From Bacilli bacterium (GTDB taxonomy: Bacteria > Bacillota_I > Bacilli_A > RFN20 > CAG-826), in contig JAKSUY010000003.1 in the NCBI GenBank assembly GCA_024408495.1, positions 1-59,109 on the forward strand: DNA of 59,109 nt. The letters run 5' to 3'. Positions 35,912-36,469 of this stretch are shown in pieces; the first letter of the stretch is position 1; each line of letters begins with the position of its first letter. A model generated the notes under the pieces. The model searched no databases and had not been told where the DNA came from. It saw only the letters and a program-made list of their open reading frames with translations. A program made the position numbers and the translations under genes.

Positions 35912-35996
35912 TACATTTCCCTCCTTTGGACATCTGGCTAATAACTAAGGTGTTACTAGCAAGAGAGTAACGACTAATAAATTAATCGTAGGAGAT

Positions 35997-36025
35997 ATTG
36001 TATAACTAAAACACTTAATACGCAA
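35997..36025 (-). promoter_or_regulatory. rpsF promoter
   Basis: Minus strand -35 TTGCGT (36020-36025) and -10 TACAAT (35997-36002), spacer exactly 17. It gives a leader of about 80 bases containing a GTTACT-8 nt-AGTAAC hairpin. Confidence 0.75.
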
Positions 36026-36048
36026 AATAAATATTATCCTAGATAATA
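36024..36048 (-). terminator. AT-rich hairpin that may end the small-ORF transcript
   Basis: On the minus strand TATTATC (36042-36048), loop TAG, GATAATA (36032-36038), then TTTATTTT. A weak intrinsic terminator candidate placed between the small hydrophobic ORF and the rpsF promoter. Confidence 0.4.
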
Positions 36049-36093
36049 ATTTTAACAATTACACCTCCTTACTTAAGCGGGGCAACTCGCCCC

Positions 36094-36121
36094 TTGTGTA
36101 ACCCTCAGATCATGGTATAAT
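36094..36121 (+). promoter_or_regulatory. Promoter of the short plus-strand RNA
   Basis: Plus strand TTGTGT (36094-36099), 16-base spacer, perfect TATAAT (36116-36121). The predicted start is near 36128, only 8 bases before a terminator hairpin, and no ORF follows. Confidence 0.7.
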
Positions 36122-36127
36122 ATCAAT

Positions 36128-36171
36128 AGTGTTGGTGCTGCCTAGCCATGACTAGACAGCATTTTTTTATT
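36128..36171 (+). ncRNA. Short antisense RNA, candidate antitoxin of a type I system
   Basis: An RNA of about 44 bases is predicted from the promoter at 36094-36121 to the T-run ending near 36170. It consists of a short 5' tail (AGTGTTGG) and the terminator hairpin. It is fully complementary to the 3' untranslated region of the minus-strand small ORF at 36171-36299, whose stop codon abuts its 3' end. This convergent overlap matches antisense antitoxin RNAs of type I systems. Its existence is inferred from promoter plus terminator only. Confidence 0.55.
36136..36170 (+). terminator. Intrinsic terminator of the short plus-strand RNA
   Basis: TGCTGCCTAG (36136-36145), loop CCATGA, CTAGACAGCA (36152-36161), then seven T. 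The plus-strand stem has one C-A mismatch; on the minus strand the same position is a G-U pair, so the hairpin also forms in the opposing transcript, without a T-run. Confidence 0.85.
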
Positions 36172-36299
36172 TAGCGGCTAAGTTTACTAACAACTACATA
36201 CAACACTATCAATAAGATAATGAGATCACTCACGTGACCTGACTTACCTCCTTCCCAAGGATTAACACAAGGCATCAGCGCCCCTAAGGCGAATAACAT
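36171..36299 (-). CDS. Small hydrophobic peptide, candidate type I toxin
   Basis: A 42-codon ORF too short for routine calling. Residues 1-22 run MLFALGALMPC...EGGKSGH; residues 23-42 are a hydrophobic helix (SDLIILLIVLYVVVS) ending in the basic tail KLSR, the layout of Fst/Ldr/TxpA-type membrane toxins, though with no recognisable sequence identity. AAGGGGG lies 8 bases before the ATG. An internal GTG at 36233, with AAGGAGGT 12 bases upstream, could instead start a 20-residue peptide. A convergent short RNA overlaps its 3' side. Identification as a toxin is inference. Confidence 0.5.
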   Translation of the reverse strand: MLFALGALMPCVNPWEGGKSGHVSDLIILLIVLYVVVSKLSR

Positions 36300-36360
36300 G
36301 ACATTATCCCCCTTATATATGTACTTAGCGAAAAAGCGCTCAAATTCTCACTTATTTTTA

Positions 36361-36386
36361 TATATTTATATAATTATATAAATATA
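36361..36386. promoter_or_regulatory. 26-bp perfect AT palindrome
   Basis: Perfect palindrome with arms TATATTTATATAA and TTATATAAATATA, no spacer, containing TATAAT on both strands. It sits about 60 bases upstream of the small hydrophobic ORF and may be its promoter, or a cruciform-forming separator before the 36513 operon. Confidence 0.4.
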
Positions 36387-36469
36387 AATTTTACATAAAT
36401 TCTATTTCCAACCATTTAAAGCTACAATTGCCTAGTTATTTACGATTTATAAGATAAAAAATCCCCACA

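Follow-up and report, generated by a model that had tools for sequence, protein, structure and literature searches.

We identified a probable type I toxin-antitoxin (TA) cassette, lying behind a promoter-like module of putative competence genes, upstream of rpsF in the 59,109-nucleotide stretch of a Bacilli bacterium analysed here (contig JAKSUY010000003.1; hereafter the window). The host genus comprises small-genome gut Bacilli, and the gene pair, a tiny membrane peptide with an antisense RNA (asRNA) of ~40 bases, is predicted to be self-poisoning. An earlier reading made from the sequence alone had proposed a type I TA locus at this site. The position and the layout both stand, but the cassette is multi-copy, and its tie is to a module shared with competence genes and not to rpsF itself. 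Our best reading is that the 18 cassettes tabulated across five genomes of the genus (G000 to G004) form a new group of type I TA systems that is built into competence operons. We favour the type I layout because six distinct peptides have one anatomy, the peptide is constrained, the asRNA signals are conserved and the closed fold of the mRNA is compensated. The locus in the window consists of the following features, in which ORF stands for open reading frame, SD for Shine-Dalgarno sequence, UTR for untranslated region and pN/pS for the ratio of non-synonymous to synonymous change.

36306 to 36388, minus strand: promoter-like module R1, with an AT palindrome TATATTTATATAATTATATAAATATA, the core AAATAAGTGAG, a T-run and TATATAAGGGGG; R1 match of 54 bits, E 2e-14, alignment of 29 copies; common to competence genes
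36308 to 36314, minus strand: SD AAGGGGG of leader ORF1, forming the 3' end of the module; kept in copies
36234 to 36299, minus strand: leader ORF1 (MLFALGALMPCVNPWEGGKSGH...), ATG at 36299, fused in frame to ORF2 in this copy
36246 to 36253, minus strand: SD AAGGAGGT of ORF2, 12 nt upstream of the GTG, read from the sequence and from the upstream regions of all copies
36171 to 36233, minus strand: ORF2, the putative toxin, (M)SDLIILLIVLYVVVSKLSR, 20 aa, GTG start at 36233 and stop at 36171; family A pN/pS 0.25
36138 to 36160, no strand assigned: hairpin of the toxin mRNA 3' UTR, whose opposite strand is the asRNA terminator stem
about 36128 to 36168, plus strand: predicted asRNA of ~41-42 nt, its T7 end facing the A-run just past the toxin stop; extended -10 and terminator, 0/400 shuffles
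36094 to 36121, plus strand: asRNA promoter, TTGTGT - 16 nt - TATAAT with a TGG extended -10 (TATAAT at 36116-36121)
36079 to 36093, minus strand: 3' element GGGGCGAGTTGCCCC, which closes the 5'-3' fold and lacks a U-run

The sequence-only reading had taken a minus-strand ORF of 42 codons with a ribosome site for the peptide gene. This ORF is open in the window (36171..36299, with the SD AAGGGGG at 36308-36314), but judged from the copies the conserved cistron is the internal 20-codon GTG ORF2. The 42-codon ORF was rejected as the toxin because other copies keep the 20 codons after the GTG open but have a frameshift or a stop 5' of it. On the minus strand, ORF2 is followed by an A-run and then the hairpin, and the plus-strand promoter points towards the ORF. 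The T-run of the plus-strand terminator ends at ~36168, adjoining the toxin stop codon. The predicted asRNA is wholly complementary to the toxin 3' UTR, as had been claimed, and its predicted length is ~41-42 nt, against the earlier figure of about 44 bases. The missing U-run after the 3' element at 36079..36093 may permit transcription into the next gene.

With the 401-bp query, three further near-full copies turned up in the genome of the window, at 94, 84 and 83% identity, along with several matches covering only its first ~90 bp. Following up the latter revealed a second toxin family, B, which has the same plan and three copies in that genome, bringing its cassettes to seven altogether. 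Further searches of the genus yielded four more types (D, E, E2 and F), making six with A and B. The types have little sequence in common, E and E2 being alike in the last part of the peptide; what they have in common is the plan, namely a leader ORF, a hydrophobic peptide of 19-23 aa, an A-run, a hairpin and an opposite-strand extended -10 promoter. The start codon of ORF2 is GTG in A, B and D, ATG in F and E2, and TTG in E. The hydrophobicity of the peptide (Kyte-Doolittle) is 1.6-3.1, and its last residue is mostly Arg; one A copy has His there, and F ends in Lys-Gly. The copy numbers are lower bounds because repeats of this kind break assemblies, and several copies lie near contig ends.

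By comparison of the copies, the ORF2 peptide looks constrained: pN/pS was 0.25 in family A (pS 0.48, pN 0.12) and 0.28 in family B (pS 0.28, pN 0.08), estimates made from few sites and related copies. The antisense unit was scored by a strict rule, an extended -10 on the antisense strand with a terminator 25-60 nt away. This arrangement was found in 16 of the 18 copies, whereas dinucleotide shuffles gave it 0-1 times per 400 for each copy and 0/400 for the window region. In the two copies that miss, the stem contains two A.C mismatches. An asRNA promoter and terminator are present in all six toxin types, and the predicted asRNA tail is 7-13 nt away from the toxin stop (35 nt in the truncated copy). 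Both short ORFs and repeats resembling terminators arise often, and a random short ORF beside such a repeat in a gene-free stretch has to be considered; six types with one anatomy, the shuffle controls and the covariation described below leave this next to no probability, and conservation refutes it.

The predicted sense mRNA of every type folds far below shuffles, with z of -4.0 to -6.2 (-2.0 in one B copy), and folding of the opposite strand is weaker in most. Pairing of the leader with the 3' end closes the fold. In the family A consensus, 15 of the 79 pairs carry changes on both sides, a number of double changes reached in 0/500 shuffles, and pairing is kept in 94.4% of cells vs 39-49% with the partners slid and 89% after shuffling. 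The invariant 5'-3' closing helix is silent on covariation; it is the inner helices, among them that of ORF2 with the 3' UTR, that supply the support. Conservation in relatives and covariation, which the sequence-only reading had named among its checks, both speak for the locus. The hairpin targeted by the asRNA (36138-36160 and its counterparts) has a sense-strand G.U in 9 of 14 distinct copies, each giving an A.C mismatch in the asRNA stem, and one position is reversed in the comEA copy of G000. Because the departures are mostly of the sense G.U/asRNA A.C kind, we read selection as acting on the mRNA hairpin more than on the asRNA terminator, these events not being all independent. The U-run after the 3' hairpin is missing in A, B and F, consistent with predicted read-through into the gene; in E, where a separate module precedes the next gene, the tail is U-rich.

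The frame of ORF1 varies among copies, with an out-of-frame end at or near the ORF2 start in the copies other than that of the window. Relative to the ORF2 start, ORF1 ends at -16 to +66 nt in all copies, so that ribosomes reading it would arrive there, a coupling comparable to that of mok for hok. From this anatomy we infer coupling, toxicity, asRNA action and benefit as follows. The module would drive an mRNA that spans the leader ORF1 and ORF2, the latter encoding the 20-aa membrane toxin, and often the next gene too, by read-through past the U-run-less hairpin. The full-length mRNA, closed 5' to 3', would be poorly translated. The sigma-A-type promoter on the opposite strand would produce an asRNA of ~40 nt, which would pair with the 3'-UTR hairpin past the toxin stop and silence or remove the mRNA. 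On firing of the competence promoter the mRNA could outrun the asRNA, leading to membrane damage or growth arrest, and if the locus were lost a stable mRNA could outlive the asRNA.

The ~80-bp module R1 was modelled without structure from 29 copies. Each of the five genomes of the genus gives 8-22 matches to it, against a total of two marginal matches in 72 genomes from other genera of the family. The module comes after the terminator of the preceding gene at several sites and usually has an SD at its end, and the cassettes sit behind it. The genes found directly behind it in at least one species are dprA, comEA (with comEC next), comFA and rpsF-ssb-rpsR, and also a small peptide gene with radC, a CxxC lipoprotein, an ABC transporter, a C39-peptidase-like protein and a small coiled-coil family; DprA, the ComEA-like protein, the ComFA-like helicase and RadC were identified by Pfam/NCBIfam on partial sequences. 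In streptococci, comEA, comEC, comFA, dprA, radC and ssbB belong to the core SigX regulon (PMC5069739), and the com genes of Lactobacillus sakei are driven by sigma-H (PMC3364868). Because the module-led genes match the content of the core SigX regulon, we call them a putative competence regulon, and from gene content and position we infer promoter activity of the module and its competence control. As a plain sigma-A promoter the module was rejected, no consistent -35 and -10 having been found.

Several further observations concern the module. A 206-aa sigma-H-like protein (G004 C15:14320, L218) is encoded close to cysS and a gene of rlmB type, as sigH is in Bacillus, and is a candidate reader of the module. 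An IS3-like transposase insertion sequence lies inside one module copy (G004 C23:86919, L063). Paralogous proteins of ~80-160 aa, with a variable front and a conserved end (..GFKQVNARIDxIDARLDYIVKANNLKDLPK), are almost always behind the module and often in tandem (G004 C53:22225-25201; G003 C4:64714-65698; G000 C12:60946-62493, C7:23909, C30 and C46); one member searched against Pfam gave no match. Between the module and radC lies a conserved peptide of ~58 aa (KLTDQ..VGEAITLASVMAxLSIAIT; G000 C17, G004 C1, G001 C42:5961, G002 C7:8146), which looks like a leader with a hydrophobic core, has no Pfam match and could be bacteriocin- or pseudopilin-like. A 404-aa protein with a C39-peptidase-like start (QNECGYASLKMLL) is also behind the module (G000 C67:35354, G004 C1:65854). 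Going by this gene, peptide processing or export may be part of the module regulon.

Another reading takes ORF2 for an exported peptide, either a signal or a bacteriocin, that the adjacent ABC transporter would handle. The pairing of this transporter with a cassette is conserved in five genomes, and the C39-peptidase-like gene also carries the module. However, ORF2 has no leader or double-glycine site, an asRNA converges on every type, and the ABC transporter occurs without a cassette in the 14 other genera examined, so that we regard an exported peptide as very unlikely. Slightly less remote, though still unlikely, is an attenuator or riboregulator, in which ORF1/ORF2 and the asRNA would tune the downstream competence genes without any toxin. 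Most cassettes indeed lie in gene leaders, co-directed and with no sense terminator behind, and the leader is long and structured. Against this, the G001 C3 cassette has no co-directed gene directly behind it, the same genes occur without a cassette in G001-G003, and ORF2 is constrained at the protein level, with only hydrophobic character common between types.

The distribution of the cassettes bears on their role. At rpsF, G000 has an A cassette and G004 a B cassette, G001 and G002 have the module alone, and the other genera showed no module at this site. At the lipoprotein, comEA, dprA and radC sites a cassette is present in G000 and G004, with none immediately before the gene in the observed copies of G001-G003. 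The ABC-transporter site has a cassette in 5/5 genomes, in three types (B, D and F), and none was seen at this gene in 14 other genera. The 3' side of rpoC has B in G000 and E in G001. The simplest history that these sites suggest begins with an old cassette at the ABC gene, followed in the G000/G004 branch by spread across module sites, plausibly through recombination between modules. Two other origins were rejected. The module had no match in a viral contig collection, which argues against a phage. Neither terminal repeats nor a target duplication, as would mark a mobile element with defined ends, were seen, and the common part is the module, which also precedes ordinary genes. A search of Rfam (4227 families) with five loci gave no match at E ≤ 1.

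Spread of this kind could be that of a selfish repeat, a real type I TA for which the module is common only through recombination between homologous modules, with no role in competence. We consider this a serious contender, its chances lying a little below even; it concerns the role and not the TA anatomy, and its probability overlaps that of our best explanation. Types swap at one site (A, B or none at rpsF; B or E on the 3' side of rpoC) and decayed toxins occur beside an intact asRNA, both of which favour it, whereas the cassette kept at the ABC-transporter site in all five genomes and the orientation that the cassettes keep, sharing the promoter-like module, argue against it. More tentatively, the TA group may be a working part of the natural-competence programme, fired by the competence promoter. 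The toxins would then pause the growth of competent cells or enforce the keeping of competence loci, and CreTA, which guards CRISPR-Cas, is a precedent for such addiction (PMC9458426).

Some points weigh against reading the cassettes as a type I TA group under a competence promoter. The module has no recognisable sigma-A or sigma-H box, and for this reason the label 'promoter' rests on its position, after terminators and before an SD and genes. The TA reading itself comes from sequence, transcripts and toxicity being predicted. ORF2 is intact in 15 of the 18 copies; ACG replaces the expected GTG in two B copies and one A copy is frameshifted. The family A spacing of 12 nt between SD and GTG is long. 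The peptides, one of them carrying an extra terminal glycine in these searches, had no match in Pfam or NCBIfam at E ≤ 1. The genome of the window is a fragmentary metagenome-assembled genome (85% complete, 6% contamination, 72 contigs); G004, assembled from a horse-faeces metagenome, independently gives the same picture.

The sequence-only reading had compared the wiring to par/Fst, TxpA/RatA and BsrG/SR4, and had thought the asRNA unusually short. RNA II of par/pAD1 is also ~40 nt (PMC7472228), and par/Fst of pAD1 and the chromosomal Fst-like loci resemble the cassettes in the convergent mRNA and asRNA, both of them predicted in the cassettes, the GUG-start short membrane peptide, the structured mRNA and the existence of chromosomal copies. 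The cassette peptide has 19-23 aa vs ~33 and an overlapping leader ORF, and the PXXXG motif of the Fst/Ldr helix (defined in PMC7472228) is absent from every ORF2. Of the other Fst/Ldr features, the DRa/DRb direct repeats have no counterpart (no direct repeat of at least 10 nt in 36060-36320), and in place of a bidirectional terminator a T-run is found on the asRNA side only. As in TxpA/RatA and BsrG/SR4 of Bacillus subtilis, the predicted asRNA converges on the 3' end of a toxin mRNA encoding a hydrophobic peptide with a charged tail. The asRNAs of those two systems are far longer and overlap the ORF, whereas that of the cassette, at ~40 nt, would be confined to the 3' UTR. Pfam/NCBIfam searches (E ≤ 1) gave no TxpA/BsrG membership, a separation made by family profiles and not by direct comparison.

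With hok/Sok the cassettes have in common a leader ORF that overlaps or abuts the toxin ORF, in all copies, and a closed 5'-3' mRNA, predicted for the cassettes; Sok, however, pairs on the 5' side near the leader start, while the predicted cassette asRNA lies 3' of the toxin stop, and the cassette toxin is unrelated and much shorter. The aapA/IsoA systems of Helicobacter pylori likewise have several chromosomal copies, with an asRNA and a 5'-3' long-distance interaction such as those predicted for the cassettes (PMC6733600), but differ in the overlap, in sequence and in phylum, and have no known regulon tie. On the basis of its anatomy, the cassette would work like a combination of the 3' overlap of BsrG/SR4, the closed mRNA of hok/AapA and the leader ORF of mok. 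The toxTA pair of Haemophilus influenzae is under a competence promoter (PMC6957337); it is however a type II system with a protein antitoxin in one operon, whereas the cassettes would have an RNA antitoxin and many copies, between the module and the competence genes.

In the literature searched, toxTA with its protein antitoxin is the one case of a TA under competence control. Here a whole group of RNA-antitoxin pairs would be spread along the DNA-uptake genes of one genus with an upstream element in common. The role of chromosomal type I TA, whether selfish, addictive or a programmed pause, has long been open and becomes testable with such a group. Six diverged toxin/asRNA solutions within one architecture also separate the features that a type I TA must conserve from those free to drift. 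If the group is part of the competence programme, it would be an RNA-antitoxin counterpart to CreTA.

Downstream of the module in the window, rpsF has an apparent promoter of its own, TTGCGT-17-TACAAT at 35997-36025. The rpsF leader, CTCTCTTGCTA..TAGCCAGATGTCCAAAGGAGG (window 35912-36030; ~30 genomes), has no Rfam match at E ≤ 1; it is conserved across the order and is perhaps an S6/S18 autoregulatory leader.
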